From Scleromatobacter humisilvae (GTDB lineage Bacteria > Pseudomonadota > Gammaproteobacteria > Burkholderiales > Burkholderiaceae_C): DNA of 39,037 bases. Positions 8,457-34,893 of this stretch are shown here, in pieces. How positions within the stretch are numbered: position 1 is the stretch's first letter; the number at the start of each line of letters is the position of its first letter. The notes under the pieces are model-generated. The model made no database searches. It was not told the origin of the DNA and was given only the letters and a program-made list of their open reading frames with translations. Position numbers and translations under genes: made by a program. The DNA lies in NCBI RefSeq assembly GCF_023231945.1, contig NZ_JAJLJH010000019.1:1-39037 (forward strand), written 5' to 3'.

Positions 8457-8459
8457 TGC

Positions 8460-8505: not shown

Positions 8506-8518
8506 CCGATGAGAAGGC

Positions 8519-17815: not shown

Positions 17816-20800
17816 TTGAGCGACGTACCCAAACAGCTGGGCAAGTACGAGATCCGCCGAGCGATCGGCAAGGGTGCGATGGGCATCGTCTATGAGGGAT
17901 ACGACCCGATCATCGACCGGATCGTCGCCATCAAGACGATCAAGAAGGACGAGCTCGACGCCGAGGAGGCCGAGGAGCACTCGCGGCGCTTCCTGATCGA
18001 GGCCAAGGCCGCCGGCCGCCTGAACCACCGCAACATCGTCGGCATCTACGACTATGGCGAGGAGAAGGGGCTGTCCTTCATCGTCATGGAGTTCGTGCAG
18101 GGCAAGGAGCTGAAGTCCTTCTTCGCGGCCCGCCATCCGTTCTCGATGTCGCAGATCGTGCGCCTGATGGGCGAGCTGCTCGACGCGCTCGGCTACTCGC
18201 ACGGCCGCGGCGTCATCCACCGCGACGTCAAGCCCGACAACATCTTCGTCACCGACGACGGCTCGGTGAAGCTGGGCGACTTCGGCATCGCGCGCATCGA
18301 CTCCACCGCGAAGACGCACGCCGGCACCGTGCTGGGCACGCCCAGCTACATGGCGCCCGAGCAGATCCGCGGCGAGACGGCCGACGCGCGGTCCGACCTC
18401 TATGCCGCGGGCGTCATCCTGTACCAGTTCCTGGTCGGCGAGCGGCCGTTCTCGGGCGGCATGGTCGCGGTGATGCAGAAGGTGCTGATGGAGGCGCCGA
18501 AGCCGCCGTCCAGCCACAACCCGTCCATTCCGGAGGCGATCGATGCCGTGGTGTTGCGGGCGCTGGCCAAGGTCGCGACCGACCGCTTCGCCAGCGCCGC
18601 CGAGTTCAGCCGCGCGCTGACGGCCGCCGTGGGCCTGGCCGACTCCGGCGACGAATCGGAGTCGACGATGATCATGTCGGCTGAGGCGTTGAAGCACCTG
18701 AACGACGGCGTCGCGCCGGCCGATCGCACGGGAACGGGCACCGGAACCGGAACCGGCACGGGCACCGGAGCGACCGGCGGCAGCCATTCCGGCAGCGGCG
18801 CGTCGACGGGCCGCGCCGCGGCGGTCGAGGAGGCCCGGCGGCGCGCCGACGAGGCCCGGCGCCGCTACGAGGAGGACATGAAGCGCGCCGAGCTCGAGCT
18901 GCAGCAGGCCGAGGCCGAACAGCGCGCGGCCGAGGCCGAGGCACAGGCGCAGTCCGCGCAGTGGCTCGAAAGCTCGCGGGCGCTGCTCGCCGAAGCCGGG
19001 GCGCAGCTCGAGGCGGGGCAGGCGCTGTTCGCGCAGAACACCTTGCTGATCGACGGCCCCGCCAACGCCGCGGCCGGGCGCGCCGTCGTTGCGAAGCTGC
19101 GCGAGAGCGCCACGGCGATTGGCGCGTTCGTTGCCGACTCGTACGCGCTCGCCCCCGACGCGCAGGCCGAGCTGGAATCGCGCCGCGGCGCGCTCGACGC
19201 GGCCGCGGCGGCGCAGGAGACGCTCTGCGAGCGCATCGAACGCGAGGGCCGCAGCGCGCTCGGGGGCTTCGAGCAGAAGCTCGACGTGCTGGAAAAGCGC
19301 CTGTCCGGCCAGGACGGCGCGTGGGGCAGCGAGTCGCGCGCGCTGGAGTCCGTCGATGCGGCGGCCGGCGAGGCGCCGATCGACGCCATCCAGGCGCGCC
19401 TGGACAAGCTGGCCGCCAGCGTCGAGCAGGTCGGCAAGGGCTTTGCGTCGATGCAGGCGCTGCCGTTGAAGCTGCCCGTGCCGCTGGCCGAGCGCGTCGC
19501 CGTCATCGAGGCCCAGCTGAAGGCGCAGACGGGCTACATCGCGCGCCTGCGCAGCGAGACCGAGGCGGCGCGCGAACGCGCGCGCGCCGAGGCGCAGGCC
19601 AGGCGCGTCGCCGAGGAGCAGGCGCGCCGCGCCGCCGAGGTCGCGCGCGAGCAGGCCGCGGCGGCCGCCCGATTGCAAGCCGAGGCCGAGGCGGCCGCGC
19701 AGCGCAAGCGCCTGGCCGATGAACTGGCCGAGCGCGAGGCTGTCGAGGCCGAGGCGAAGCGCCGGGCCGAGGACCAGGCCGCGCAGGACGCGGCCGCGGC
19801 CCTCCGACGCCAGGCCGACGAGCAAGCGCGCCTCCAGGCCGCCGCCGATGCGACGGCCAAGGCGGACGCCGATGCGCGCGCGAAGGCCGTGCTCGAGGCG
19901 AAGCGCCAGGCCGACGAGGAGGCTGCGCGGCGGGCGGATGTCGAGGCGAAGCGCGCGCGCGAGGCGCAAGCCGCCGCGATGCTGAAGCCGGCCGATCCGG
20001 AGGCGACCATGCTGGCCCGCGCCCCGGCGCCCGTCGCCGCCGACGACGACGCCGAGTTGACGATGGTGCGTCCGATCCGGGACAAGCCGCCCGCGCGCGC
20101 GCCCGCTCCCGCGCGTGCGCCGACACCGCCGCCCGCAGCGCCCGCGCCGGTCGCGGTGGCGCCCTCCGGCAGGAACCCTCTGCTGCTGCCGATCGCGGGT
20201 GCGGCGGTCGTCGCGCTCGCGGCGGGCGCCTGGTTCGTGCTCAAGCCGGCGCCGGCGCCGACGACGGTCGACAGCGCGCCGCCGCCGCCGGTCGCCGCCG
20301 TGCCCGTGCCGTCGCCGACCCCCGCGCCCGCGCCGGCAGCGTCGCTGGTCGTCGCATCGCCCGCACCGGCGCCTGTCGCGACCGGCGCCAGCGCCGTCGT
20401 CGCGCCGACGGTCGACGACACGGCCGCTGCGCAACGCAAGGCCGACGAGCTGGCCCGGCGCAAGGCCGAACTCGACGCGCAGGCCAAGGCCAGGGCGGAC
20501 GCCGACGCGAAGGCAAAGGCGGACCAGGAAGCTGCGCAGGCCAAGGCCGATTCGGACGCCAAGGCCAAGGCCGATGCGGAGGCCGCCGCGGCGTTGAGGC
20601 CTCCGCGGGTGGACGCCCATGCCGACGCCTCGGACCTGCTGCGCAAGGGCTACGAGGCCTATCTCGCCGGTCGCGTGCCCGAGGGCATCCGCCAGATGGA
20701 ACGCGCCGATGCGATGGGCGCGCCTGGCGCGCGTGCGCGGCTGTGCGCCATCTATCGCAAGCCGACGGCGGCCGAGGGCAAGGACTTCCTCAAGGAAGCC

Positions 20801-20824
20801 AACAAGTGCAAGGGCGTCGACTAG
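17816..20824 (+). CDS. ppkA: T6SS-associated membrane Ser/Thr protein kinase, PpkA-like
   Basis: A kinase of about 1002 residues that should start the threonine-phosphorylation switch of this T6SS. The N-terminal Hanks kinase domain (about 8-275) is complete: GKGAMG (18-23), VAIK (K40), HRDVKPDN (135-142), DFG (155-157), APE (180-182). A Thr-Gly repeat linker follows, then a long Ala/Glu/Arg-rich coiled coil (about 325-730), a Pro-rich stretch, one membrane helix (about 786-807), a second Ala/Lys coiled segment and a small C-terminal periplasmic domain (LLRKGYEAYLAGRVPEGIRQ) that resembles a Sel1/TPR-like helical unit. Three acidic-x-T-hydrophobic sites (T284, T731, T749) may be phosphorylated. 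TTG 17816 is the likely start; a GTG at 17687 adds 43 unconserved residues. P. aeruginosa PpkA has a different periplasmic domain. Confidence 0.9.
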   Translation: MSDVPKQLGKYEIRRAIGKGAMGIVYEGYDPIIDRIVAIKTIKKDELDAEEAEEHSRRFLIEAKAAGRLNHRNIVGIYDYGEEKGLSFIVMEFVQGKELKSFFAARHPFSMSQIVRLMGELLDALGYSHGRGVIHRDVKPDNIFVTDDGSVKLGDFGIARIDSTAKTHAGTVLGTPSYMAPEQIRGETADARSDLYAAGVILYQFLVGERPFSGGMVAVMQKVLMEAPKPPSSHNPSIPEAIDAVVLRALAKVATDRFASAAEFSRALTAAVGLADSGDESESTMIMSAEALKHLNDGVAPADRTGTGTGTGTGTGTGATGGSHSGSGASTGRAAAVEEARRRADEARRRYEEDMKRAELELQQAEAEQRAAEAEAQAQSAQWLESSRALLAEAGAQLEAGQALFAQNTLLIDGPANAAAGRAVVAKLRESATAIGAFVADSYALAPDAQAELESRRGALDAAAAAQETLCERIEREGRSALGGFEQKLDVLEKRLSGQDGAWGSESRALESVDAAAGEAPIDAIQARLDKLAASVEQVGKGFASMQALPLKLPVPLAERVAVIEAQLKAQTGYIARLRSETEAARERARAEAQARRVAEEQARRAAEVAREQAAAAARLQAEAEAAAQRKRLADELAEREAVEAEAKRRAEDQAAQDAAAALRRQADEQARLQAAADATAKADADARAKAVLEAKRQADEEAARRADVEAKRAREAQAAAMLKPADPEATMLARAPAPVAADDDAELTMVRPIRDKPPARAPAPARAPTPPPAAPAPVAVAPSGRNPLLLPIAGAAVVALAAGAWFVLKPAPAPTTVDSAPPPPVAAVPVPSPTPAPAPAASLVVASPAPAPVATGASAVVAPTVDDTAAAQRKADELARRKAELDAQAKARADADAKAKADQEAAQAKADSDAKAKADAEAAAALRPPRVDAHADASDLLRKGYEAYLAGRVPEGIRQMERADAMGAPGARARLCAIYRKPTAAEGKDFLKEANKCKGVD
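18728..18769 (+). repeat. Seven-unit ACSGGR repeat coding for (Thr-Gly)7
   Basis: Seven consecutive six-base units of the form AC(G/C)GG(A/C) encode alternating Thr-Gly in the linker after the kinase domain. The units differ at their third and sixth bases, so slippage is less likely than in a perfect repeat, but copy number could still vary. Confidence 0.75.
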
Positions 20825-20962: not shown

Positions 20963-22648
20963 ATGGAACTCGTCGTCCGCGCATTGCGTTGCCCTCCGCC
21001 CGACCAGCCGCAAGCGATCAACGCGCGCTTCGGTGCCAATGGCGGACGCATCGGGCGCAGCAACACCTGTTCGCTGCCGCTGCCGAGCCCGGATCGCTAC
21101 ATCTCGCGCGAGCACCTGGAGATCCGCTGCCGCGACGGCCGCTATTCGCTGAAGGTGATCTCCAAGGTCAACGGCTGCAGCGTCAACGACAACGCGGTGC
21201 CGCCAGGCGCGGCGGTGGAGCTGTCCAACGGCGACCGCATCCAGCTGGGCGACTACCTGCTGGTGGCCGAACTCCAGGGTGCCTCCGCCGCGGCACCCGC
21301 TGCACCCGCCATCCGCGATCCGCTCGCCGCGTTCGGCCATTCCGCCGGCGCGCGTGCCGACAGTCTCGACATGATGGCGTCGCTCGCGCCGCCACCGGCA
21401 GCCGGTGTTGCGCGCGATTCGCAGTTCGGCACGTCGCCCAACTGGGCGAAGCCGCCGACGCCCGAGGCGCGGCGCGCGCCGCCAGTGGCGCCGCTGGCCC
21501 AGCCGCTCGAGGCCGATCCTGCGGCCGGCGACCTGAGCCGCATGCTCGACGCGCCGCCGTCGGCGTCCCCGCGCCCGCGCGCGGCGAGCGCGGATGCCGC
21601 GGCCCATCGCGTGTCGGTGCCGGCCGGCAACGACTACGGCGCCAGCGCGCTCGACGCGTTCCTGGGCACGGACAGGCCCGCCGCCGCGGTTCCGATGAGC
21701 GACCAGGCCCAGGGCCTGTTCCGCCAGCAGGACGTCAACCTCGCGATGCCCGCGCAAGGCAACAACACGCTGCCCGAGCCGTTCGACGACGACATCTTCG
21801 CGGCCCTCGACAAGGACTTCGGCCCGGCCCGCAGCGCGCCGGCTCCAGCGCCGGCGCCGGCGCCGCTCGCCCCCGTCCGCGCCGCCGCGCCGCCGGCCGA
21901 CATCGACCCGCTGGACATCGACCTGATGGCCGACGTCGCCGCACCCGCGCGCACGCACGTCATCGCGCCGCCGCGTGCCGCGCCCGAGCCCGCCGTCGCG
22001 CCGAAGGCCCCGCCGGTGGCCGCCGGCGGCGCGGGGGTCGACGGCACCGCGGCGCTGGCCGTGCTCGCGCAGGCACTCGAGCTCGAGCCGGGCGACCTCG
22101 ATGCATCCAACCCGATGGAGACGATCCGCATCGTCGGCGAGCTGCTGAACCTCACCGTCAACGGCCTGTACCAGATGCTGCAGATGCGCGCCGAGCTCAA
22201 GAACGAGCTGCGCATCGAGGATCGCACGATGATCGCGTCGCGCGAAAACAATCCGCTCAAGCACTCCGAGTCGGCGCGCGACGCGTTGCGCTATCTCGTG
22301 GACGTGCGCCAGCATGGCAACAAGCTGTTCCTGCCACCGGTCAAGGCCATCGGGGACGCCGTCAACGACGTCTGCGCGCACGAGATGGCCGTCATGGCCG
22401 GCACGCGCGCGGCGCTGCTGGCCGCGCTGAAGATGTTCGCGCCCGACACGGTGGAGAAGCGCATCAAGAAGTCGGGTGCGCTCGACAGCGTGGTGCCCGC
22501 GCTGCACCGGGCCAAGCTGTGGGAAAGCTTCCTGGCGATGTATGGCGAGCTCGAGAAGGAAGCCGAGGATCATTTCGATCGACTGCTCAATCAGGAGTTC
22601 GCGCGCGCCTACGCGGAGCAGGGCAAGAAGCTGCGACGCAAGAAGTGA
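20963..22648 (+). CDS. tagH: T6SS FHA-domain protein TagH (Fha)
   Basis: A 561-residue cytoplasmic protein. The N-terminal FHA domain (about 1-105) shows the phosphothreonine-binding elements GRIGRSNTCSLPL, YISREHLEI and KVNGCSVND. A long Pro/Ala-rich disordered middle follows, and then the C-terminal domain specific to T6SS FHA proteins (about 365-561, from ALAVLAQALELEPGDL through ENNPLKHSESARDALRYL to KKLRRKK). In the family, FHA proteins bind threonine-phosphorylated T6SS components after kinase action and promote assembly. The order kinase-FHA-phosphatase supports a complete phospho-switch. ATG 20963 gives the conserved beginning MELVVRALR. Confidence 0.95.
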   Translation: MELVVRALRCPPPDQPQAINARFGANGGRIGRSNTCSLPLPSPDRYISREHLEIRCRDGRYSLKVISKVNGCSVNDNAVPPGAAVELSNGDRIQLGDYLLVAELQGASAAAPAAPAIRDPLAAFGHSAGARADSLDMMASLAPPPAAGVARDSQFGTSPNWAKPPTPEARRAPPVAPLAQPLEADPAAGDLSRMLDAPPSASPRPRAASADAAAHRVSVPAGNDYGASALDAFLGTDRPAAAVPMSDQAQGLFRQQDVNLAMPAQGNNTLPEPFDDDIFAALDKDFGPARSAPAPAPAPAPLAPVRAAAPPADIDPLDIDLMADVAAPARTHVIAPPRAAPEPAVAPKAPPVAAGGAGVDGTAALAVLAQALELEPGDLDASNPMETIRIVGELLNLTVNGLYQMLQMRAELKNELRIEDRTMIASRENNPLKHSESARDALRYLVDVRQHGNKLFLPPVKAIGDAVNDVCAHEMAVMAGTRAALLAALKMFAPDTVEKRIKKSGALDSVVPALHRAKLWESFLAMYGELEKEAEDHFDRLLNQEFARAYAEQGKKLRRKK

Positions 22649-22798: not shown

Positions 22799-23626
22799 AT
22801 GGCCGCCCTCGGCACCACGGCCCCCCATTGCGAGATGGCCTCGCGCACCGATGCGGGACGCGTGCGCTCGGCCAACGAGGACGCGCTGCGCTTCGACGCG
22901 AACCTCGGCCTGGCGATCCTCGCCGACGGCATGGGCGGCTATGCCGCGGGCGAGGTGGCCAGCCGGATGGCGGTCGACGAGATCTTCGACGAGCTGGCGT
23001 CGGCGCTGCCGCACCTGCATGCGGCGCCGGTGTCGCCCGACCGCGCCGGCCTGCACGAGGACATGCGCTTCGCCGCGGCGCGCGCCAACGCCAGCATCAT
23101 CGCGGCCGCGCGCCGCGAGCCCGACTACGAGGGCATGGGCTCGACGCTGGTCATCGCGGTGCTGATGCACGACCGCATGACGGTCGCCCACCTCGGCGAC
23201 TCGCGCTGCTATCGCTGGCGCGCCGGCGTGCTCGAACAGGTCACGCGCGACCATTGCTGGGTCGACGAGCAGATCGCGATGGGCGCGCTGTCCGTCGATG
23301 CGCTGCTGGATCCGCGCTTTCGCAACATCGTCACGCGCGCGCTGGGCATCGAGGACGAGATCGATCTCGAGGTGCACGACCACGAGGCGCTGGTCGGCGA
23401 CGTCTTCCTGCTGTGCTCCGACGGCCTGACCGACATGCTGGACGACGGCGCGATCTCGGCCCACTTCGGGGCCGGCAAGCCGCTGGTCGAGACGGCGTCG
23501 CTGCTGGTGGACGCGGCCAACGAGGCCGGCGGCCGCGACAACATCTCCGCGCTGCTCGTGCAGGTCGGTACGCCCCAGTCGCCGGGCTGGGCCGCGCGCC
23601 TGGTGCGGCGGCTGCACGGCGGCTGA
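22799..23626 (+). CDS. pppA: PP2C-family Ser/Thr phosphatase, PppA-like
   Basis: A 275-residue soluble metal-dependent phosphatase. All PP2C signatures are present: GRVRSANEDAL, ILADGMGGYAAGEVAS (metal-binding Asp-Gly), GSTLVIAVL, VAHLGDSRCYRW, LLCSDGLTDML and GGRDNISALLV. It should remove phosphate from the targets of the neighbouring kinase and so switch the T6SS off. ATG 22799 was chosen; a second ATG twelve codons later (MASRTDAGRV) is also possible. No membrane helix is seen. It lies 150 bp after tagH. Confidence 0.94.
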   Translation: MAALGTTAPHCEMASRTDAGRVRSANEDALRFDANLGLAILADGMGGYAAGEVASRMAVDEIFDELASALPHLHAAPVSPDRAGLHEDMRFAAARANASIIAAARREPDYEGMGSTLVIAVLMHDRMTVAHLGDSRCYRWRAGVLEQVTRDHCWVDEQIAMGALSVDALLDPRFRNIVTRALGIEDEIDLEVHDHEALVGDVFLLCSDGLTDMLDDGAISAHFGAGKPLVETASLLVDAANEAGGRDNISALLVQVGTPQSPGWAARLVRRLHGG

Positions 23627-23973
23627 GCCACCGGGCGCCGCCCCTTGGCGCGGCGCGCGGCAAGCCCCGAAACCGGGGATCTTGCCGAGGTCGAGCGCGG
23701 CTGTAATGTGCTGAAATCGACTCGGCCTGGCCGCTGCTGCACCATGCGGGCAAGGCGCGAGAACGTCGCGGCGCAACACGAGGCCCCCCAAGTGGTGAAT
23801 CGCAAACCCGTTTGTTTGAGACGAGAATTCGGCAGCCCCTCGCATCGGGCTGAAAGGCTCGCGGCGCAGCATTTGTTCGTCATGGGCGGCGTCTCCCGCA
23901 TCGTCGACGAGGGCGGCAACCTCGTGGTCTCCGTCCGCCAGAGGCCGTGCCCCACGGAACAAAGGAAATCGCC
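23627..23973. other. Leader region upstream of vgrG
   Basis: 347 bases without a convincing gene. Visible elements are a small hairpin CCCCG-AAAC-CGGGG (23665-23678), an inverted AGCCC/GGGCT pair near 23835-23851, and the vgrG ribosome binding site AAAGGAAA near 23960. The middle (23790-23880) is less GC-rich than its surroundings, as expected for a promoter region, but no sigma-70 or sigma-54 promoter could be fixed. A 110-codon frame across it looks non-coding. Confidence 0.4.
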
Positions 23974-26040
23974 ATGAGCCGCCTGCTTGAGATCTCCACC
24001 GCCGCCGGCGCCGACGTCTTCGTCGTGCAGCGCTTCACCGGGCGCGAGGAACTGGGCCGGCCCTACGAATACCAGCTCGAGCTGCTGTCGGAGCGCTCGG
24101 ACATCGCGCCCGAGAAGATGCTGGGCACCAACGCCACGGTGCAGCTGGAGATGACCGACGGCTCGTCGCAGCGCTACTTCAACGGCTACGTCACGCGCTT
24201 CGTCATCCAGGGCGCGGTGCGCACGCCGGCGTTCAAGGGCAATACGGGGTACCTGTATCTCGTCACGCTGAACCCGGGGCTGTGGTTCCTCGGGCATTCG
24301 GCCAACAGCCGCATCTTCTCGCAGACCGCGATCGGCGACCTGGTGATGGCGCAGCTCAAGAACGACACGCTGATGGGGGTCGAGAGCAGCGTCGGCAGCA
24401 CGGAGACGCGCGACTACGTCGTGCAGTACCGCGAGTCCGACTTCGACTTCGTCAGCCGGCTGATGGAGCACGCGGGCATCTACTACTACTTCACGCACGA
24501 CAACGGCAAGCACACGATGAAGCTGCTGAACGCGCTCGGCGACCAGCAGGCCACGCCCAACCTGGCGCAGCTCGAGTTCGCCGGCCCCGGCTTCGCCGAC
24601 GCGACGCTCGGCAGCCTCGAGCTGGTCTCGAAGGTGCATGCCGGCTCGTTCGCCACCGGCGACTACAACTACGTCACGCCCAACACGCAGATCGCCTCGG
24701 TCAGCGCCAATCCGAAGTCGCACGACAACGCCGGCTTCGAGGTGTTCGACCACCCGATCGGCACGACCACCGGCGCGCAGGCGACCACCTACGCGACGAT
24801 CCGCGGCGAGGAACTCGCGAGCCGCTACTCGATCGCGCACGGCAAGGCGACGGAGCGCCGGCTGCAGGTCGGCTTCAAGGTCAAGGTCGTCGACCACGGG
24901 GTGGCGGCGCTGAACCGCGAGTACCTGGTGATCGGCCATTCCTTCGTCGCGGTCAACAACCTCGCGGCCAGCGGCGGCGGCGACGGCGGCTCGTTCACGT
25001 GCGAGTTCGAGGCCATCCCGTCGTCGGTGCAGTTCCGCACGCTGCGCACCACGCGCAAGCCGGTCATCACGGGCACGCAGACCGCGCTGGTCGTCGCCGA
25101 CTTCCGCAACGACAGCGACGCCAGCACCGGCGGCAACCTCGGCCGCATCAAGGTGCGCTTCTTCTGGGATCGCTACGGCAGCGACTCGTGCTGGGCCCGC
25201 GTGTCCACGCCGTGGGCCGGCAAGGGCTACGGCTTCCAGAACATGCCGCGCGTCGGCGAGGAGGTGCTGGTGCAGTTCCTCGAGGGCGACCCCGACCGGC
25301 CCGTCGTCATCGGCCGCGTGCACAACGCCGAGAACACGCCGCCGTTCAAGCTGCCGGCCGGCGCGTCCTACACGGGCCTGAAGTCGCTGAGCATCGATTC
25401 CAGCGGCAAGAGCGTGGCCGGCAAGTGGAACGAGCTGCGCTTCGACGACACCGACGGCGCCGAGCAGATCTACCTGCAGGCGCAGTACAACTTCGACACC
25501 CGCGTGCTCAACGACCACAAGCTGTGGATCGGCAACGAGTCGCACCACTACGTGAAGGCCGACGCGTTCGCCAAGTTCGACGGCGACCACCACGTGCAGA
25601 CCACCGGCGACCACAACGAGAAGATCGGCGGCAAGCTGTCGATGGACGTGGCGTCGGACGTCCACCTCAAGAGCGGCTCGGCCGTCCTCGTCGACGGCGG
25701 GCAGGAGATTCACCTGAAGGCCACGTCCAAGATCGTCCTGGAGTCGAGCACGATGGTCTCGCTCGTGTGCGGCGGCAACTTCGTGACGCTGAGCCCGGCC
25801 GGGGTCGACATCAAGGGCATCATGGTCAACGTGAACTCCGGCGGCAGCAAGGGCTCGGGCAGCGCGATCAGCCCGCAGGCGCCCAAGGCCGGCAAGGACG
25901 CGATGACCAGCGAAGGCGGCGCGGCCGTCGACAAGCCCGCCGCGCCGACGGCGCCGACGGCTTTCTCGCCCAAGGCCAGCAGCTTCCTGACGGCCGCGAA
26001 GACCGGCGCGCCGTTCGTGTCGTCGTCCTGCCCGGGCTGA
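23974..26040 (+). CDS. vgrG: T6SS spike protein VgrG (TssI)
   Basis: A 688-residue VgrG that forms the trimeric needle tip. The gp27-like base covers about residues 1-370 (start SRLLEISTAAGADVFVVQRF; YYYFTHDNGKHTMKLL). The gp5 OB-fold is at about 389-450 (LGRIKVRFFWDRYG, VGEEVLVQFLEGDPDRPVVI) and is followed by a beta-helix rich in His-Val and Lys-Ile repeats (about 500-620). The C-terminal extension of about 50 residues is Ala/Pro/Ser-rich with no enzymatic motif, so this is not an obvious evolved VgrG with a toxin domain. The start is ATG 23974, nine codons into the longer frame, because of AAAGGAAA just upstream. DUF4280 and DUF4123 genes follow directly. Confidence 0.96.
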   Translation: MSRLLEISTAAGADVFVVQRFTGREELGRPYEYQLELLSERSDIAPEKMLGTNATVQLEMTDGSSQRYFNGYVTRFVIQGAVRTPAFKGNTGYLYLVTLNPGLWFLGHSANSRIFSQTAIGDLVMAQLKNDTLMGVESSVGSTETRDYVVQYRESDFDFVSRLMEHAGIYYYFTHDNGKHTMKLLNALGDQQATPNLAQLEFAGPGFADATLGSLELVSKVHAGSFATGDYNYVTPNTQIASVSANPKSHDNAGFEVFDHPIGTTTGAQATTYATIRGEELASRYSIAHGKATERRLQVGFKVKVVDHGVAALNREYLVIGHSFVAVNNLAASGGGDGGSFTCEFEAIPSSVQFRTLRTTRKPVITGTQTALVVADFRNDSDASTGGNLGRIKVRFFWDRYGSDSCWARVSTPWAGKGYGFQNMPRVGEEVLVQFLEGDPDRPVVIGRVHNAENTPPFKLPAGASYTGLKSLSIDSSGKSVAGKWNELRFDDTDGAEQIYLQAQYNFDTRVLNDHKLWIGNESHHYVKADAFAKFDGDHHVQTTGDHNEKIGGKLSMDVASDVHLKSGSAVLVDGGQEIHLKATSKIVLESSTMVSLVCGGNFVTLSPAGVDIKGIMVNVNSGGSKGSGSAISPQAPKAGKDAMTSEGGAAVDKPAAPTAPTAFSPKASSFLTAAKTGAPFVSSSCPG

Positions 26041-26069
26041 CGCCTTTCCCTGCGAACCAGGAGAACACG

Positions 26070-26459
26070 ATGCCCAATCACGTTTGTCACGGTGCCTTGC
26101 TCCAATGCACCATGGGCATGGCGCCCAGCAGCCTGGCCGTGCTGCCCATCAAGATGGTCAACACGTCCAACGTCCCCGCGGCCAACATCATGGATCACGT
26201 GCCGATGGTCAACATCATGCCGTTCGGCATGTGCCAGTCGCCGGCCAATCCGATGGTGGCCGCCGCCACGGCCGCGGCGCTGGGCGTGCTGACGCCGATG
26301 CCCTGCATCCCGGTGACGCCGTCGCCATGGGTGCCCGGCTCGCCGACGGTCATGCTGGCCAACCAGCCCGCGCTGAACAAGAGCTCGATGCTGATGTGCA
26401 ACTGGGCTGGCCAGATCAGCATCCAGGTCGAAGGCCAGATGACGCACACGATTCCCTGA
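26070..26459 (+). CDS. DUF4280-family PAAR-like spike tip protein
   Basis: A 129-residue protein. MPNHVCHGALLQCTMGMAPS at the N-terminus, followed by MPFGMCQSPANPMVAAATAA, TPMPCIPVTPSPWVPGSP and MCNWAGQISI, matches the DUF4280/PAAR-like pattern, with conserved Cys residues that in PAAR-type tips can hold a metal. Such proteins are expected to sharpen the VgrG spike and to carry or recruit cargo. CAGGAG (26058-26063) precedes the ATG. It lies 29 bp after vgrG and 12 bp before the DUF4123 gene, so the three are probably one unit. No toxin domain is fused to it. Confidence 0.88.
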   Translation: MPNHVCHGALLQCTMGMAPSSLAVLPIKMVNTSNVPAANIMDHVPMVNIMPFGMCQSPANPMVAAATAAALGVLTPMPCIPVTPSPWVPGSPTVMLANQPALNKSSMLMCNWAGQISIQVEGQMTHTIP

Positions 26460-26471
26460 AGACTGGAACCC

Positions 26472-27011
26472 ATGTCCGAACGCTCCCTTCCCATGCCGCC
26501 GGCCGTGCAGACGCGCCTGTGGCAAGAGGCCGGCGACATGCCCGCCTACGTCATCCTCGATGGCGCGCAGAACCCGAGCCTGCTCGAGGCGCTGTACGCC
26601 GACCATGCGCCTCGCTGGCGCTGCCTGTTCACCGGCCAGCTGGAGCCGGACATGGCCACCGTCGCGCCCTACCTGATCGAACTCGAGCCGAGCGCCGCCT
26701 TCACGCGCCGGCTGCTGGCCGAGGGCTGGGGCCAGAACTGGGGCGTGTTCCTCACCAGCCAGCTCGCCTTGCCCGCGCTGTGGCGGCACGTGCGCCAGCA
26801 GGTGCACGTCTACGGGCCGGACATGGAGTCGCTGTTCTTCCGCTTCTACGACCCGCGGGTGATGCGCAGCTACCTGCCGACCTGCCCGCAGCAGCAACTG
26901 GCCGCGTTCTTCGGGCCGGTCGACTTCTATTTCGCCGAGGGCGAGGAGCCGACGCGGGCGCATGCGTGGTCGATCGCCGACGGGCGGCTCGTCGCCCAGA
27001 GTCTCGGCTGA
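26472..27011 (+). CDS. DUF4123-family T6SS adaptor/chaperone
   Basis: A 179-residue protein with the DUF4123 hallmarks: an early AYVILDGAQNPSLLEALY strand-helix, APYLIELEPSAAFTRRLL, WGVFLTSQLALPALWRHVRQ, and FRFYDPRVMRSYLPTCPQQQ followed by FFGPVDFYF. DUF4123 proteins act as chaperones that load specific effectors or PAAR proteins onto VgrG. An effector gene usually follows; here the next gene is a sheath-like fusion protein, so the client may be the DUF4280 protein or an effector encoded elsewhere. Confidence 0.9.
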   Translation: MSERSLPMPPAVQTRLWQEAGDMPAYVILDGAQNPSLLEALYADHAPRWRCLFTGQLEPDMATVAPYLIELEPSAAFTRRLLAEGWGQNWGVFLTSQLALPALWRHVRQQVHVYGPDMESLFFRFYDPRVMRSYLPTCPQQQLAAFFGPVDFYFAEGEEPTRAHAWSIADGRLVAQSLG

Positions 27012-27037: not shown

Positions 27038-28456
27038 ATGCCCGCTATCGAGTTGAACATCGGACACCTGCCGTCGCCGCGCCGCCAGCGCAGCGACGAC
27101 GACGGCGACGACGCGGCGCCGTTCCGAGTCGTCGTGCTGGGCGACTTATCGGGCCGGCCGCGCGCGCGCCGCCAGCCGCTGGCCGAGCGGCGGCCGGTGC
27201 GCATCGACATCGACAACTTCGACAGTGTCTTCGCCCGCATCGCGCCGGTCGCCGAGATCGACGGCCTGCAGGACGAGGCCGGCGTGGCGCTGCGCATCGC
27301 GCTCGAGTCCATGGACGACTTCTCCGCCGACGCGGTGCTGGCGCGCCTGCCCGCGCGGGCCAGCGCGAGCGCGTCGCCCCCGCCTGCGCCCGCGCGCGAG
27401 GACGGCGCGGAGGACGCCGCCGCGATGATGAAGCGCCTGCTGGGCGGCGACCTGCCCGCGGGCGCGCCCGCGCTGGCCGCCACGCCGTCGTCCACGGCCG
27501 ATGGCGCCATCGATCGCTTCATCCGCCAGCTGGTGGGCGATCAGCTCGTCGCCGCGACGCCGGCCCCCGCAACGCGCGTCGACGAACCTGCCGTCTCCGC
27601 GCTGCTGCGCCACGTGCTGCGCGATCCGGCCTGGCGTCGTCTCGAAGGCGCGTGGCGCGCGGTCGACCGCTTCGTGCGCGAGCTCGACATGGCCGATGGC
27701 CAGGTGCGCCTCGAGCTGTTCGACTGCCGGGCCGACGAGCTGCTGGCCGATCTCGGCGCCGTCGCCGCGGAGCCGGCGCGGGCCGCGCTCGCCGCGGTGT
27801 TGAACGGCGATGGCCGGGGCTGCGATGTCGTCGTCAGCCTGGAGGAGTTCGGGCCCAGCCTGGTCGAGTTGTCGCTGCTGGGCGGCCTGGCCTCCGTGGC
27901 CGCGGCCCAGGGCGCCGTGCTGCTCGCCGGCGCCGCGCCGGCGCTCGCTGCCGTGGCCACGAGCGACGACGCGCAGGTGCTGGCCGCCAACGAGTCGCGC
28001 GTGTGGCGGGCGCTGCGCGAGAGCGCGCTCGCGCGGCATGTCGGCCTGACCTTCCCGCGCCTGCTCGCGCGCCTGCCGTACGGTCCGCGCAACGAGCCGG
28101 TGTCGGCGTTTCCGTTCGACGAACTGGCCGATGCCTCCACCCTGTCGCTGCACGACGCGCTCGTCTGGCGCAGCGCCGCGCTGGACGCCGCCTTGCTGCT
28201 GGCGCAAGGCGACGTCGACGGCGGCGTCGAGACGCGGGTGCAACTCGCCGACCTCCCGGCCTTCATCGACCGCAGCGGCGAAGAGCCCCGCCTGCAGGCG
28301 GTGGCCGAGGCGTATCTCGGCGAGCGCGACGTCGACGTGCTGCAGGCGGCCGGCCTGATCACGCTGCAGAGCGAGCGCCGCGTGCCTGAAGCGCGCGTCT
28401 CGGGCTGGCAGTCGATCGCCGCAGGCGGTGGCGAACTCGCCGGCAGCTGGCGTTGA
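27038..28456 (+). CDS. Fused TssB/TssC-like sheath-related protein
   Basis: A 472-residue protein that joins two sheath families. Residues about 28-104 resemble TssB: VVVLGDLSGRP, RIDIDNFDSVFARIAP and ALESMDDFSADAVLARL align with ADLSGKP, EIDVDNFDERLKSMKP and TFENMSDFSPEAVAKKV of TssB in this locus. Residues about 155-460 resemble TssC: RRLEGAWRAVDRFV, RVWRALRESALARHVGLTFP and RLLARLPYGPRNEPVSAF align with TKLEGAWRGLHHLV, AAWRSLRESEDARYIGLAMP and RFLARLPYGAKTNPVDAF. It ends before the C-terminal part of TssC. An acidic, Pro-rich linker (105-150) connects the halves. ATG 27038 has AAGGAG at 27025-27030. Complete tssB and tssC are also present, so this is an additional component of unknown function. 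Confidence 0.85.
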   Translation: MPAIELNIGHLPSPRRQRSDDDGDDAAPFRVVVLGDLSGRPRARRQPLAERRPVRIDIDNFDSVFARIAPVAEIDGLQDEAGVALRIALESMDDFSADAVLARLPARASASASPPPAPAREDGAEDAAAMMKRLLGGDLPAGAPALAATPSSTADGAIDRFIRQLVGDQLVAATPAPATRVDEPAVSALLRHVLRDPAWRRLEGAWRAVDRFVRELDMADGQVRLELFDCRADELLADLGAVAAEPARAALAAVLNGDGRGCDVVVSLEEFGPSLVELSLLGGLASVAAAQGAVLLAGAAPALAAVATSDDAQVLAANESRVWRALRESALARHVGLTFPRLLARLPYGPRNEPVSAFPFDELADASTLSLHDALVWRSAALDAALLLAQGDVDGGVETRVQLADLPAFIDRSGEEPRLQAVAEAYLGERDVDVLQAAGLITLQSERRVPEARVSGWQSIAAGGGELAGSWR

Positions 28457-28628
28457 AACCCGATGCGAACGCGCGCGCTCGCCGCGGTCCTCACGAGGGG
28501 AAACTGCGGTTTTCTACCCTCGGCGCGCCGAATGAATACGTGTACATTTGCTGCGGCCCCGCGACGTTCCGGGTCGTCAACATGAACCCGCGCGTCGCCC
28601 CTGCGCCGGTTCTCACGACAACAAGAGC

Positions 28629-29966
28629 ATGAGCCGAAAGCGCGTCATCTGGTCGGAGGGATTGTTCCTGCGGCCGCAGCATTTCCAGCAACTCGAACGC
28701 TCCGTCGAGATGCTCGTCGAGTCCCGCGCGGCCGGCCTGCTCGCGCCGGGCTGGGGCTTCACCAGCCTGCGGCTCGACGACGAGGCGCTCAAGATCGGAC
28801 GGCTCTCGATCAAGGCCGCGCGCGGCGTCATGCCCGATGGCACGCCGTTCTCCATCCCCGAGGAATACGCCGCGCCGCTGGCGCTCGAGATCGGCACCGA
28901 GGTCAAGGAAACGCTGGTGCACCTGGCGCTGCCGCTGGTGCGCTCGGGCATGCCGGAGTTCGCGGTCGACGCCGGTCCGTCCACCGCGCTCGCGCGCTTC
29001 GTCGGCCAGGACCTGCGCGTCGAGGACAACGTGCTGGGCGTCGGCGATCCGGCCGACATGAAGCTGGGGCAGCTCAACCTGCGCCTGATGCTGGACGACG
29101 ATCCGCGCTCGGGCTTCTGCAGCATCGCGGTGGCGCGCATCGTCGAACGCCGCAGCACCGGGCAGCTGATCCTCGACGAGAGCTTCATCGCGCCGGCGCT
29201 CGATTGCCGCGGCAGCTCGCGCCTGCAGGATTTCCTGATCGAGGCGCGCAACCTGGTGCGCCATCGCGCCGACACGCTGGCCGCGCGCCTGAACCAGTCG
29301 CAGCAGAAGGGCGTCGGCGAGATCGGCGACTTCATGATGCTGCAGGTCGCCAACCGCTACGACCCGTGGCTCACGCACCTCGGCGAGCGCGAGTCGCTGC
29401 ACCCCGAGGCGCTCTACACGGTGCTGGTGCAGGCGGCCGGCGAGTTCTCCACCTTCAGCGACCGTCGCAGGCGCCGCGCGCGCGTGCAGGCCATCTATCG
29501 CCACGAGGACCTGAAGAACACCTTCGAGCCGTTGATGTTCGACATCCGCGAGCTGCTCACCGAGGTGATCAACCCGAACGCGGTGCCGATCCCGCTGCAG
29601 GAGCGCGCCGCCGGCCTGTACACGGGCATGGTGCCCGACGTCGACCTGCTGCACAACGCGCAGTTCGTGCTGTGCGTCAACGCCGACCGGCCGGCCGAAT
29701 ACGTGCGCGGCCGCTTTCCGCCGCAGGTCAAGATCGGGCCGCCCGACAAGATCCGCGACCTGGTGCGGCTGCACCTGCCCGGCATCGACGTCGAGCCGCT
29801 GCCGATGGCGCCGCCGCGCATGCCGTACTACGCGGGGTATACCTATTTCCAGCTCGATCGCAGCGGCGACCTGTGGAAGCAGCTCGACGTCACCAAGGTG
29901 ATCGCGCTGCACATCGCGGGCGACTTCCCCGGCCTCCAACTCGAGCTCTGGGCCCTGAAACCCTGA
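28629..29966 (+). CDS. tssK: T6SS baseplate protein TssK
   Basis: TssK is the trimeric baseplate connector that links the TssEFG wedge to the TssLM membrane complex. The 445-residue protein begins with the family signature KRVIWSEGLFLRPQHFQQLE and contains DELPDGTPF-like text (VMPDGTPFSIPEEYA), ARNLVRHRADTLAARLNQS and the C-terminal YYAGYTYFQLDRSGDLWKQL. No membrane helix is seen. ATG 28629 is chosen because the signature follows at once; the Shine-Dalgarno sequence is weak. A 172-bp gap before it may hold a promoter, though none could be fixed. tssL follows after 22 bp. Confidence 0.97.
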   Translation: MSRKRVIWSEGLFLRPQHFQQLERSVEMLVESRAAGLLAPGWGFTSLRLDDEALKIGRLSIKAARGVMPDGTPFSIPEEYAAPLALEIGTEVKETLVHLALPLVRSGMPEFAVDAGPSTALARFVGQDLRVEDNVLGVGDPADMKLGQLNLRLMLDDDPRSGFCSIAVARIVERRSTGQLILDESFIAPALDCRGSSRLQDFLIEARNLVRHRADTLAARLNQSQQKGVGEIGDFMMLQVANRYDPWLTHLGERESLHPEALYTVLVQAAGEFSTFSDRRRRRARVQAIYRHEDLKNTFEPLMFDIRELLTEVINPNAVPIPLQERAAGLYTGMVPDVDLLHNAQFVLCVNADRPAEYVRGRFPPQVKIGPPDKIRDLVRLHLPGIDVEPLPMAPPRMPYYAGYTYFQLDRSGDLWKQLDVTKVIALHIAGDFPGLQLELWALKP

Positions 29967-29988: not shown

Positions 29989-31329
29989 ATGACCCAACCT
30001 CCCTACCCAGGCCAGCCGGGCACGCCGCCCCCGCCGCCGGACGATTCGGAAGCCACGATCATGATCCCCAAGCCGGGCGGCCGCCGCGCGGCGGCCCAGG
30101 CACCGATGGCGGGCCAGGCGATGACGCTCGATGCGTCGGCGGTGCTGGCCGACGTCGAGGACGCCGCCGGCCCGGTCGGCCTGAACCCGCTGGTGGCCAA
30201 CGCGTCGGTGCTGCTCAACACGGTGCCGACGATCCGGCGCTCGCTGCGCCACGCCGACCCGGCCGGCCTGCGCGACTACCTGCTGCGCGCGATCACCGAG
30301 TTCGAGACGCGCGCGCGCGCCGCGGGCGCGACGCCCGAGCACGTGCTGATCAGCCGCTACGCGCTGTGCACCGTGATCGACGAGGCCGTCGCCAACATGC
30401 CCTGGGGCGCGAGCCCCGAGTGGGTGCAGCAGAGCCTGCTCGTGACGCTGCACCGCGAGGGCTTCGGCGGCGAGAAGTTCTTCCAGCTGCTCGAGAAGGC
30501 GATGGAGGATCCGCGTCGCAACATCGACCTGCTCGAGCTGATGTACGTGTGCATCGCGCTCGGCTTCGAGGGGCGCTACAGCGTCATCGAGAACGGGCGC
30601 CAGCAGCTCGACGTCGTGCGCGACCGGCTGCACAACGTGATCCGGCGCGAGCGCGGCGAGTTCGAGCGCGACCTGTCGGGCAAGTGGCGCGGCGTGCAGC
30701 GTGTGGCCAAGCCGCTCGTGCGGCGGCTGTCCGCGTGGATCGTGCTGGCGGCCGTGGCGCTGCTGCTGTTCGTGCTGTACCTGGTCTTCGCGCTGCTGCT
30801 GGCCTCGAAGTCCGACCCGGTCTTCCACCAGCTCGCGGCGATCCACTCGGACGTCGGCGACCTCAAGCGCGCGCCGCCGCCCCCGCCGCCGCCGGCCGCG
30901 CCGCGCCTGAAGCCGCTGCTCGCGCAGGAGATCCTGGACGGCCAGGTCGACGTCGAGGAGGACGCGACGTCCAGCCACGTCATCATCCACGGCGACAAGT
31001 TCTACGACCCGGGCAGCGCCGACATCAAGTCCGAGCTGGTGCCCGTGATCAACCGCATCGCCGCGGCGATCAACCAGGTGCCGGGCGTCGTCACCGTCAG
31101 CGGCCACACCGACAACCAGCCGACCCGGCGTTCGCTGCGCTTCCCGTCCAACTACGAGCTCTCGCTCGAGCGCGCGCGCGGCGTCGCCACCTTGCTGGGG
31201 CAGACGGTGCAGAACCACGCGATCAAGGCCGAGGGCCTGGCCGACAGCAAGCCGCTGGCGCCGAACACCACGCCGGAAGGACGCGCGCGCAATCGCCGCG
31301 TCGAGATCACCTTGCGCACCGGCGCATAA
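29989..31329 (+). CDS. tssL: T6SS membrane complex protein TssL with OmpA-like domain
   Basis: A 446-residue long-form TssL. The order is: a Pro-rich cytoplasmic N-terminus with T23 in DDSEATIMIPKPGG, the DotU/IcmH domain (about 60-240: GLNPLVANASVLLNTVPTI, RYALCTVIDEAVANMPWG), one membrane helix (about 250-275), a Pro-rich spacer and a periplasmic OmpA-like peptidoglycan-binding domain (about 325-445; VSGHTDNQPTRRSLRFPSNY, LSLERARGVA, NRRVEITL). It forms the envelope channel with TssM and TssJ. In Agrobacterium tumefaciens, PpkA phosphorylates TssL at an N-terminal Thr that Fha then recognises; T23 is a candidate equivalent here. Confidence 0.97.
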   Translation: MTQPPYPGQPGTPPPPPDDSEATIMIPKPGGRRAAAQAPMAGQAMTLDASAVLADVEDAAGPVGLNPLVANASVLLNTVPTIRRSLRHADPAGLRDYLLRAITEFETRARAAGATPEHVLISRYALCTVIDEAVANMPWGASPEWVQQSLLVTLHREGFGGEKFFQLLEKAMEDPRRNIDLLELMYVCIALGFEGRYSVIENGRQQLDVVRDRLHNVIRRERGEFERDLSGKWRGVQRVAKPLVRRLSAWIVLAAVALLLFVLYLVFALLLASKSDPVFHQLAAIHSDVGDLKRAPPPPPPPAAPRLKPLLAQEILDGQVDVEEDATSSHVIIHGDKFYDPGSADIKSELVPVINRIAAAINQVPGVVTVSGHTDNQPTRRSLRFPSNYELSLERARGVATLLGQTVQNHAIKAEGLADSKPLAPNTTPEGRARNRRVEITLRTGA

Positions 31330-31350: not shown

Positions 31351-34300
31351 ATGTGGGCAAAGCTCAAGAGCTTCTTCGCCAATCGCTGGGTGCTGGCGTT
31401 CATCGGCCTGCTGGTCGTGTCGCTGCTGATCTGGTTCGTCGGCGACGCGATCGCGTTCTATGACCATCGGCCGCTCGGTTCGGCCGGCGCGCGCATCGGG
31501 TTGATCGTCCTGGTCTGGCTGGTCTTCGCGCTCGTGGAGGGCCTCAAGCAGTTCCGCGCGTGGCGCGCCAACAAGGCGATGCTGGCGGCGATGGGCGAGG
31601 GCGCGTCCAGCAACTCGGCGCTGTCGCAGCGTGAGGTCGCCGAGCTCAAGAAGCGCTTCGACGACGCGATGGCCACGCTGCGCAAGGCGCGCTTCGAGGA
31701 CAAGTCCGGCAGCGGCCGCAACTACCTGTACCAGTTGCCCTGGTACATGTTCATCGGCGCGCCGGGCTCGGGCAAGACGACGGCGCTGGTCAACTCGGGC
31801 CTGCGCTTTCCGCTCGAAGGCAAGATGGGCAAGGACGCCGTCAAGGGCATCGGCGGCACGCGCAACTGCGACTGGTGGTTCACCGACGAGGCCGTGCTGC
31901 TCGATACCGCCGGGCGGTATACGACGCAGAGCAGCAATCGCGAGGTCGATGCCGCGGCGTGGACGGGCTTTCTCACGCTGCTGAAGAAGTTCCGCCCGGC
32001 GCAGCCGCTCAACGGTGCGATCGTCACGGTGAGCCTGTCCGACCTGTTCACGTCGTCGTCGGCGCAGCGCGATGAGTACGCGCGCTCGATCCGGGCGCGC
32101 ATCCAGGAGCTGTATTCGACGCTGGGCGTGCGCTTCCCGATCTACGTGGTCGTCACCAAGTGCGACCTGCTGGCCGGCTTCGCGGAGTTCTTCGGCGACC
32201 TGGGCCGCGAGGCGCGCGCGCAGGTGTGGGGCACGACGTTCGACTTCCCGCTGCCCGCAGGCGCGAACCTGGGCGCGACGTTCGCGGGCGAGTTCGACGC
32301 GCTCGTCGCGCGCCTGAACGCGCGCCTGACCACGCGCATGGAAGAGGAGCGCGACCCGCAGCGGCGCGCCACGCTGTTCGCGTTCCCGCAGCAGTTCGCG
32401 GGCCTGCGCGACATGCTCAAGGCCTTCCTCGACGAGGCCTTCCTGAGCTCCGCGTTCACCGAGGAGCCGATGGTGCGCGGCGTCTACTTCACCAGCGGCA
32501 CGCAGGAGGGCAGCCCGTTCGACCGCGTGCTGGGCAACATCTCGCGCGTCTACGGGCTCGAGCGGCAGGTGCTGCCGCCGGCGTCGTCGTCGGGTCGCAG
32601 CTACTTCCTCACGCACCTGCTGCGCGGCGTGATCTTCGCGGAGTCCGACATCAGCGGACGCAGCGCCGTCATCGAGAAGCGCCGCGGCCGCGTCGCGCTC
32701 GCGCTGTATTCGCTGCTGGCGCTGCTGTCGCTGCTGCTGATCGTGGGCTGGACGATCAGCTTCGTACGCAACCAGGTGCTGATCAAGGACGTGGCCGAGG
32801 CCTCGGCCGAGGTCACGAAGCAGGTGGCCGCGGTGCCGCCGCTGCCCACCGGCGACGTCACGACCGTGCTGCCGGTGCTCGACGCCGCGCGCAACATCCC
32901 CACCGGCTACGCCGATCGCGACGCCGGCGTGCCGATGTCGCGCGCCTTCGGCCTGAGCCAGAGTGGCAAGCTGGGCACGCAGGCCGACCGCGCCTACCTG
33001 AACCTGCTGCGCGATGTCTTCCTGCCCCGCATCGCGCTGCGCCTCGAGCAGCAGATCCGCGAGGCCAATTCGCCCGAGGTGCGCTACGAGGCGCTCAAGA
33101 CCTACGTGATGCTGTACGACCCGGCGCACCTGAAGGCGGCGGACGTCAAGACCTGGATCTCCGCCGACTGGGATCGCACGCTGTCGCGCGACATCACGCA
33201 GCTGCAACGCGCGTCGCTGCTCGCGCATCTCGGCGCGGCGCTCGACCAGCTGCCGCTCGAGATGGTGCTGCCGCAGGACCAGGCGCTGGTGCAGCAGGTG
33301 CGCACGCAGCTGGCCGCGGCGTCGCTCGCGCAGCGGACCTATTCGCGGCTGAAGCGCATCGGCGTCGAGGGCGTGCCCGACTTCCGCGTCACCGATGCCG
33401 GCGGCCCGCAGGCGGCGCTGGTCTTCACGCGCGCCTCGGGCGCACCGCTGTCGCAGGGCGTGCCGGCGCTGTTCACGGTGGCCGGCTACGACAAGGGCTT
33501 CCGCGCGCAGGCGCCGCTGCTGGTCAAGCAGCTGGGCGACGAGGAGGCCTGGGTGCTGGGCACCTCGTCCAACGGCTCGGGCGTGGCGCGCATGGCCACC
33601 ACGCTCACCGAGGTGCAGCAGCTGTATCTCAACGAATACATCAAGAGCTGGGACGACCTGCTGGGCGACCTGCGCCTGATCCAGTCGTCCAGCCTGCAGG
33701 GCAGCATCCAGACAATCACGCTGCTGTCCGCGGGCGACTCGCCGCTGAAGCTGCTGCTCAATGGCGTGGCCAAGGAGACCAAGCTCGCCACCGGCAACGA
33801 CAGGTCGGCCGAGGCCGCGGCCGCGGGCCTGCTGGACAAGGCCACCGCCGCGATGCGCAGCACCGCCGACAAGCTGATGGGCACGCCGGCCGCCAGCGCG
33901 CAGCCGGCGGCCAAGCCCGAGGCCGTGGTCGACGCGCACTTCGAGCAGTTGCAGCGCGTCGTCGCCGGTCCAGCCGGCCAGCCCGTGCCGCTCGACGCGA
34001 CGCTGGGCGTGCTGAAGGAATACGAGGTGCAGCTGCGCGCGACCGACGAGGCGATCAAGCGCGGCGCGCCGGTCACGTCGGATGCGCTGATCGTCGCCCG
34101 CATCAAGAGCGAGGCCGACCGCATGCCGCCGCCGGTCAGCAACCTGCTCAACGGACTGATCTCGCGCAGCGGCGCGCAGTCGGCCGGCGCCGGCGCGGCC
34201 GCGGTGAAGGCGGCCGCGGCGGGCGAGGTCGGCAGCTGGTGCAAGCCGGCCGTCGAGGGGCGCTATCCGTTCGTCAAGGGCGTGGCCAAGGAAGTGCCGC

Positions 34301-34893
34301 TGGGCGACTTCGCCAAGCTGTTCGCGCCCAACGGCGTGATCGACGGCTTCGCCAAGACCAAGCTCGTCGGCATGGTGGACATGAGCGGCCCGCTCTGGAA
34401 GCCGATCCAGATTGCCGACGGCGTCGACGCGTTGCCGCCCGCCGCGATCGCCAACTTCCAGCGCGCCGCGACGATCCGCGACGCGTTCTTTCCCGGCGGC
34501 GCGGCCAATCCGCAGGCCTCGCTCGACCTGCTGCTGCAGCGCGTCGACGACGGCGTGACCGACGTGCAGCTGTCCATCGACGGCCAGGTCAGCTCGATGA
34601 AGCCGGGCACCAACGCCGCCGCGCGCCTGTCCTGGCCCAGCCTCAGCCCGGCCAGCCAGATCAAGCTGACGCTCGTGATCGGCGGCAAGCCGTCGACGAC
34701 GCCGCTGATCTTCGACGGCCCGTGGGCGCTGTTCCGCTTCGTCGACGCCGGCAAGGTCGAAGGCGGTACGCCGGAACGCCAGAGCGTCAGCTACGCGGAG
34801 GGCGGCAAGCAGGTGTTCTTCGAGCTGCGATCGGGCAGCGTGCGCAATCCGATGCGGCTGCCCGAGCTGGCGCAGTTCCGCTGCCCCGGCTAG
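31351..34893 (+). CDS. tssM: T6SS membrane complex protein TssM (IcmF family)
   Basis: An 1180-residue inner-membrane protein. It has two N-terminal membrane helices (about 13-36 and 46-64), a cytoplasmic nucleotide-binding domain with Walker A GAPGSGKTT (136-144) and VLLDTAGRYTTQ, a third helix (about 449-472, LALYSLLALLSLLLIVGWTI) and a large periplasmic part that contacts TssJ. The Walker A motif is intact, unlike in several TssM proteins that have lost it. ATG 31351 is preceded by GGCGGAGAACC. The stop TAG lies within the TAGGAG that serves as the tagF ribosome binding site, indicating coupling. Confidence 0.97.
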   Translation: MWAKLKSFFANRWVLAFIGLLVVSLLIWFVGDAIAFYDHRPLGSAGARIGLIVLVWLVFALVEGLKQFRAWRANKAMLAAMGEGASSNSALSQREVAELKKRFDDAMATLRKARFEDKSGSGRNYLYQLPWYMFIGAPGSGKTTALVNSGLRFPLEGKMGKDAVKGIGGTRNCDWWFTDEAVLLDTAGRYTTQSSNREVDAAAWTGFLTLLKKFRPAQPLNGAIVTVSLSDLFTSSSAQRDEYARSIRARIQELYSTLGVRFPIYVVVTKCDLLAGFAEFFGDLGREARAQVWGTTFDFPLPAGANLGATFAGEFDALVARLNARLTTRMEEERDPQRRATLFAFPQQFAGLRDMLKAFLDEAFLSSAFTEEPMVRGVYFTSGTQEGSPFDRVLGNISRVYGLERQVLPPASSSGRSYFLTHLLRGVIFAESDISGRSAVIEKRRGRVALALYSLLALLSLLLIVGWTISFVRNQVLIKDVAEASAEVTKQVAAVPPLPTGDVTTVLPVLDAARNIPTGYADRDAGVPMSRAFGLSQSGKLGTQADRAYLNLLRDVFLPRIALRLEQQIREANSPEVRYEALKTYVMLYDPAHLKAADVKTWISADWDRTLSRDITQLQRASLLAHLGAALDQLPLEMVLPQDQALVQQVRTQLAAASLAQRTYSRLKRIGVEGVPDFRVTDAGGPQAALVFTRASGAPLSQGVPALFTVAGYDKGFRAQAPLLVKQLGDEEAWVLGTSSNGSGVARMATTLTEVQQLYLNEYIKSWDDLLGDLRLIQSSSLQGSIQTITLLSAGDSPLKLLLNGVAKETKLATGNDRSAEAAAAGLLDKATAAMRSTADKLMGTPAASAQPAAKPEAVVDAHFEQLQRVVAGPAGQPVPLDATLGVLKEYEVQLRATDEAIKRGAPVTSDALIVARIKSEADRMPPPVSNLLNGLISRSGAQSAGAGAAAVKAAAAGEVGSWCKPAVEGRYPFVKGVAKEVPLGDFAKLFAPNGVIDGFAKTKLVGMVDMSGPLWKPIQIADGVDALPPAAIANFQRAATIRDAFFPGGAANPQASLDLLLQRVDDGVTDVQLSIDGQVSSMKPGTNAAARLSWPSLSPASQIKLTLVIGGKPSTTPLIFDGPWALFRFVDAGKVEGGTPERQSVSYAEGGKQVFFELRSGSVRNPMRLPELAQFRCPG

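Follow-up and report, generated by a model that had tools for sequence, protein, structure and literature searches.

In the known sheath of the type VI secretion system (T6SS), the N-terminal strand of TssB and the C-terminal strand of TssC (the arms) insert into the inner domains of neighbours and interlock the protomers. Here we describe a fused, shortened TssB-TssC-like protein encoded in a 39,037-nucleotide stretch of Scleromatobacter humisilvae DNA (the window; NCBI RefSeq assembly GCF_023231945.1, contig NZ_JAJLJH010000019.1, positions 1 to 39,037, forward strand), in which TssB-like and TssC-like parts, joined by a linker, form one intact chain, and which belongs to a family found in several lineages, frequently with its gene away from the T6SS locus. 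Among the described systems, both arms go to the ring nearer the baseplate according to PMC5813253, and the TssB1 strand goes to a subunit of the same disc according to PMC5807055. TagA is the partner of long TssA, and TagB or TagJ that of short TssA (PMC7896307); in the available text, stabilisation of short-TssA systems is explained at the baseplate, not as closure of the far end (PMC7896307), and electron cryomicroscopy of the V. cholerae sheath left the protein composition of the distal end unclear (PMC5813253). The fused gene and its parts are as follows.

27038..28456, + strand: fused, shortened TssB-TssC-like protein (472 amino acids; Pfam, NCBIfam and family profile; ribosome-binding site; AlphaFold2 predicted template modelling score, pTM, 0.72)
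27047..27067, + strand: residues 4-10, IELNIGH, opposite TssB 19-25, IEYDVEL, the region of the TssB N-terminal donor strand or arm (hhalign)
27116..27352, + strand: TssB-like half, residues 27-105 (Pfam VipA PF05591, E 3.4e-14)
27428..27445, + strand: residues 131-136, MKRLLG, conserved motif of the linker, in the position that the ClpV-recognition helix occupies at the TssC N-terminus (family profile, columns in 26 members)
27590..28414, + strand: TssC-like half, residues 185-459, VipB N-terminal/middle domain only (Pfam VipB PF05943, E 5.2e-25)
28322..28324, + strand: codon of E429, at the VipB D333 position (family profile alignment)
28436..28450, + strand: LxGxW tail at the C-terminus, residues 467-471; from here TssC would run on into VipB_2 (W in 21 of 26 members)

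The 27038-28456 frame is stop-free over its 472 residues, with a ribosome-binding box, AAGGAG, 7 bases 5' of the ATG. An earlier reading made from the DNA letters alone (the sequence-only reading) had proposed a chain of this composition, and profile searches bore it out for both halves, the VipA and VipB matches being significant and above the curated Pfam cut-offs (for VipA PF05591, 53.4 bits against a cut-off of 24); up to E 10, Pfam contained no other match in the protein, the ImpA_N domain of TssA/TagA caps included. The VipB_2 inner domain (PF18945) was matched neither in the fused protein nor in any of four further family members scanned with Pfam, in agreement with the earlier view that the TssC-like half is shortened; with the inner domain missing, ordinary sheath polymerisation is unlikely. 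In NCBIfam, the protein scores 88.7 bits with TIGR03355 (TssC equivalog, cut-off 271.5) and 50.6 bits with TIGR03358 (TssB equivalog, cut-off 97.25), far under both cut-offs, so that neither the name TssB nor the name TssC fits. Against solved structures, phmmer with the protein itself found TssC chains (best E 1.9e-16) and TssB chains (best 3.1e-8), and a 23-row family profile (A4) found TssC 5n8n_B at E 2.1e-75 and TssB chains at 5.8e-18 at best. The predicted model tests positive for the middle-domain sheath fold. By its domains, the fused protein would be a single-chain protomer without inner domain, consisting of domains 2 and 3 (middle and outer) of TssB and TssC.

In hhalign, the TssB half aligns with TssB (99.5%, E 2.5e-22), residues 4-10 falling on TssB 19-25, the position of the TssB1 N-terminal donor strand region as read from PMC5807055. 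The alignment begins at TssB residue 19, and TssB 1-18 are without counterpart; HsiB1 8-30 binds TagJ/HsiE1 (PMC4239648), and by alignment the TagJ-binding N-terminal stretch that TssB has in TagJ systems is absent from the fused protein. The TssB C-terminal helix, which the sequence-only reading had taken to be missing, is indeed missing in the window genus and is kept in most members, an LRxLR-type stretch being present in most deeper relatives. A forced global alignment of the TssC half with TssC (E 4e-71) extends to about 380-390 of 496 and then ends. Column 429, at D333 of VipB, is acidic in all 26 members (24 E, 2 D), the VipB chain numbering being taken as VipB minus 16, from LLDEIM at 19-24, whereby K223 and D333 land on K and D; in V. 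cholerae, contraction depends on D333 (PMC5797969). As judged from these alignments, the protein appears to have kept an N-terminal strand like that of TssB, a helix motif at the position recognised by ClpV and the acidic residue at VipB D333. It appears to lack the arm at the TssC C-terminus, the inner domain that accepts arms and the N-terminus by which TssB binds TagJ.

The linker holds an island of conservation, in which the family profile puts 'llerLL' on VipB LLDEIM; the linker end had been placed opposite the ClpV-recognition region of TssC before, and the profile supports that placement. AlphaFold2 predicts a helix at 127-134 with low confidence. Among the 26 rows, four have LLDxxL/V, 20 have R at column 133 (xxRLLG-like), and the others are FDQLLQ (L082) and FAALLG (L085). 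In genomes G338, G159, G250 and G087, no T6SS was found other than one of the Agrobacterium type, whose TssC has FLEQAI or LLEQAI at its N-terminus and whose ClpV has L as residue 6, and the fused proteins of all four carry LLDDIL, LLDTVV or LLDSLL; no TagJ match was found beside the T6SS of G338, G159 and G250. The T6SS of the other 22 rows, where seen, include one with a DFxxLL-like TssC, and ClpV has R at residue 6 where read. The motif classes would thus fit a match to the local ClpV.

The three other searched genomes of the window genus carry the fused gene in the same place at 73-79% identity. A scan of genome contigs yielded ten loci, one of which, L041, is cut by its contig end. Three belong to the window genus; the remaining seven are distant (29-36% identity) and come from betaproteobacterial or proteobacterial assemblies, whose titles include Rhodoferax and Rhodocyclaceae, and from Stieleria, Schlesneria and a further planctomycete. 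When carriers were defined by one stop-free open frame spanning both halves, 17 of 370 genomes in a class-wide sample, the window genome included, carried the fused gene (G223, whose match at a contig edge spans 118 profile positions, is excluded). In the Planctomycetota sample there were 14 carriers among 294 genomes, nine strong (E < 1e-95) and five weaker (G636, G431, G584, G462 and G606; E 2e-74 to 2e-32). The phylum sample gave four among 397, with any match in 102 genomes at E 1e-60, a limit that could miss weaker family members; one carrier, G971, has a stop within the aligned stretch, and another, G1063, seems to be the L038 genome a second time. Chance or misassembly is ruled out by the recurrence of the same layout across many assemblies, and plasmid spread is unsupported, as no record in the plasmid collection has one place covering 80% of the fused query.

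In a tree of the TssC part (61 rows: 26 fused, 27 TssC, seven TssC2 and one full fusion; 351 columns; root not inferred; few T6SS classes represented), one branch with support 100/100 parts all 26 fused rows from all TssC and TssC2 rows; inside the fused group, long branches and unsettled bootstraps (program warnings) make the internal order unsure. This separation, with the same warnings attached, rules out a recent fusion of the locus's own tssB and tssC. Within the window genus, the ratio of nonsynonymous to synonymous polymorphism (pN/pS) is 0.36-0.48 for the fused gene, 0.08-0.14 for TssB and TssC, 0.21-0.31 for TssA and 0.23-0.49 for TagF; by this measure, the fused protein is constrained, but loosely. 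A pseudogene is ruled out by the tree grouping and pN/pS.

The full fusion in the tree comes from G008, a genome of the same family as the window genome, and is a 931-residue chain (L025:10284-13079) of about 300 residues without Pfam match, then TssB, then complete TssC with VipB_2. It is nested among ordinary TssC, and so does not represent the same event. The chain lies near a TIR-domain protein (L025:6929-8263), and no other VipB_2, no TssM C-terminus and no PADLOC hit were found in the G008 genome. It appears to be a complete sheath fusion outside T6SS, perhaps of a TIR-linked system.

Carriers of the fused gene generally have a separate sheath. A TssC-type match, defined by the profile of the fused family at E 1e-30 and not confirmed as TssC in every case, occurs separately in 16 of the 17 class-wide carriers and in all 14 Planctomycetota carriers, compared to 50 of 353 and 52 of 280 non-carriers (Fisher's test, 3e-12 and 2.6e-10, respectively), and in seven of the eight genomes behind the scan loci; the exceptions are G229 and G408. 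Some T6SS carriers, then, maintain a single-chain TssB-TssC alongside the sheath made of two chains. In the window, complete tssB and tssC were expected from the sequence-only reading and were found, TssC with both Pfam domains, in the following locus.

17687..20824, + strand: PpkA-like Ser/Thr kinase
20963..22648, + strand: T6SS FHA protein
22799..23626, + strand: PppA-like phosphatase
23947..26040, + strand: VgrG spike
26084..26459, + strand: DUF4280 protein (start inferred; domain at the end of open frame 24282-26459)
26472..27011, + strand: DUF4123 spike adaptor
28548..29966, + strand: TssK
29989..31329, + strand: TssL
31351..34893, + strand: TssM
34906..35499, + strand: TagF
35617..36699, + strand: TssA, short (360 amino acids, ImpA_N)
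36741..37250, + strand: complete TssB
37309..38799, + strand: complete TssC (VipB + VipB_2)

The genes stand in this order, with the fused gene between DUF4123 and TssK. The contig stops at 39037, shortly after TssC; in G003, of the window genus, Hcp, TagJ, TssE, TssF, TssG and ClpV are downstream of TssC. Because two genomes of the same genus, G001 and G003, have TagJ and the N-terminus of the window's TssC is DFAALL, the window T6SS is assigned to the TagJ class. On the opposite strand (16020-17816, -), we noted a single chain with Ada metal-binding, AraC-type helix-turn-helix, AlkA N-terminal and HhH-GPD glycosylase domains.

The sequence-only reading took the position of the gene as a clue to coupling with the spike or baseplate and proposed a survey of whether it always lies between DUF4123 and tssK. 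Among the 26 members examined, this position is limited to the window genus (4/4 genomes), and a general link with it is ruled out by the neighbourhoods of the other members. A T6SS core encloses or adjoins the gene in the window genus, L037 (the planctomycete Stieleria tagensis), L076, L083, L087 and L088. A vgrG occurs within about 1 kb in nine members (the four of the window genus, L073, L074, L075, L076 and L087) and was not matched in the stretches fetched for the other 17; in 14 of the 26, neither a T6SS core gene nor vgrG was matched in the fetched stretch, the exceptions among these being PpkA-like kinase matches near L036, L077 and L078. As the gene is often away from the T6SS locus, the neighbouring spike adaptor and tssK offer no general clue to its role. 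At L036, a PpkA match (7415-9889, +; 142 bits) lies directly 5' of the fused gene and is co-oriented with it, with no T6SS core gene matched nearby. The L083 member (14412-16178, -) exceeds the usual end by about 100 residues, in which there are three LDALLAELE-like repeats; its gene adjoins PppA and TagF.

With regard to function, we tentatively favour a sheath protomer that does not itself polymerise, docks at one end of the sheath, gives an arm, receives none and is recycled by ClpV, a role that we consider a real possibility, albeit short of probable; that the protein binds the sheath end and does not build a sheath is what we infer. It would keep a first-arm-like stretch and side surfaces and have no inner domain for accepting arms or facing the tube, and on an exposed ring it would be a dead-end unit, halting or holding growth. 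Via the conserved linker helix, ClpV could remove it together with the spent sheath. If the arms are handed towards the baseplate (PMC5813253), its simplest place would be the last, distal ring. The TssA open frames in carriers are of 336-462 amino acids (an upper bound), with one of 539. It is unlikely, although worth stating, that the protein is a widespread, overlooked T6SS part, a headless two-subunit protomer that ends the sheath in short-TssA (TagB/TagJ, not TagA) systems and is removed by ClpV via its own handle; if true, short-TssA systems would have a sheath-based way of termination. A conserved natural protomer without the interlocking domain is also a ready test object for the making of sheath ends.

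Several observations weigh against the sheath-end role. Carriers are a minority of the genomes with a match (17/67 class-wide and 14/66 in Planctomycetota; 4/102 at the stricter limit of the phylum sample), and two of the 26, G229 (L077) and G408 (L035), both drafts, have no VipB_2 and no TssM C-terminus in the assembly, which may reflect incomplete assemblies or a fused gene acting without T6SS. The arm stretch is short, and residues 1-25 have an AlphaFold2 predicted local distance difference test score (pLDDT) below 50; should the TssB1 strand go to the same disc (PMC5807055), a TssB arm by itself would make a sideways link, which weakens the cap idea. K223 of VipB falls on a variable column and is not conserved, although the window's TssC is without it too. 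The nonsynonymous divergence (dN) of the fused gene is about 5-7 times that of TssC, which is loose for a part fitting a conserved lattice. The match of motif classes involves one clade of four and may be a single event; moreover, in the P. aeruginosa H1 system, of the TagJ class, ClpV1 binding does not require the TssC N-terminus (PMC4239648), and because the window T6SS is of this class, the ClpV reading of the linker is weakened. Finally, the stabilisation of short-TssA systems has already been ascribed to TagJ or TagB at the baseplate (PMC7896307).

The conserved linker motif at the ClpV site could also serve a soluble regulator or decoy that offers a sheath-like surface to ClpV (or TssB, TssC or TssA) and tunes assembly or recycling from outside the machine. 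The frequent separation of the gene from T6SS, the presence of PpkA, PppA and TagF in the window locus and of PppA and TagF beside the L083 gene, and an evolutionary rate like that of TagF all point this way; however, a whole sheath fold with a conserved D333 position is more than ClpV bait needs, and the dispensability of the H1 TssC N-terminus (PMC4239648) counts against it as well, so that we find this role rather unlikely. We also regard as unlikely a partnership at the baseplate, whereby the fused protein and TssE would combine as a ring-zero protomer below the first ring and start or lock assembly. The domains are complementary, TssE being a stand-alone relative of the inner domain and the fused protein a stand-alone middle and outer domain; TssE is homologous to sheath domain 1 and is the proposed acceptor of the first ring's arms (PMC5813253); and the window gene lies among baseplate and spike genes. 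However, the minority status of carriers among genomes with a sheath-type match argues against a general baseplate role, as do the 14 members without a T6SS core gene or vgrG nearby. A spike-side adaptor that helps the VgrG/DUF4123 unit or cargo dock to the sheath or baseplate, as the nine members with a close vgrG might suggest, is improbable in view of the 17 without a vgrG match and of a predicted fold that is that of a sheath protomer. A functionless, decaying sheath duplicate, for which the missing domain and fast evolution might speak, hardly merits consideration, given the occurrence in both Pseudomonadota and Planctomycetota, one deep group with the same truncated layout, intact frames and constrained pN/pS.

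Compared with known systems, the parts and the fold are already known, whereas among the papers listed in open-access searches (subscription papers were not covered) we found no description of a fused, short TssB-TssC protein, or headless fused protomer, as a conserved accessory, and PADLOC gave no hit. The fused protein differs from TssC/VipB in the lack of VipB_2, a score below the TIGR03355 cut-off and a separate place in the tree. With TssB/VipA it shares the DxDNF core, the arm-like strand and, in most members, the C-terminal helix, but it has no counterpart of TssB 1-18, is joined to a TssC half and falls below the TIGR03358 cut-off. TagA, TagB and TagJ are likewise accessory proteins, acting at sheath ends or the baseplate (PMC7896307, PMC7545191), from which the fused protein is set apart by family annotation, no such family being found in it by Pfam or NCBIfam. 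TssC40/TssC2 of the Agrobacterium-type T6SS is likewise a second sheath-like protein, non-redundant with the main TssC (PMC3702570); however, TssC2 (3/3 scanned) has VipB_2 and no TssB half, and forms its own group in the tree. The single-chain sheath proteins of phages, pyocins and extracellular contractile injection systems likewise build the whole middle domain from one chain, and both halves of the model align with them, but these chains continue (e.g. 383 residues, aligned to 287) where the fused protein ends.
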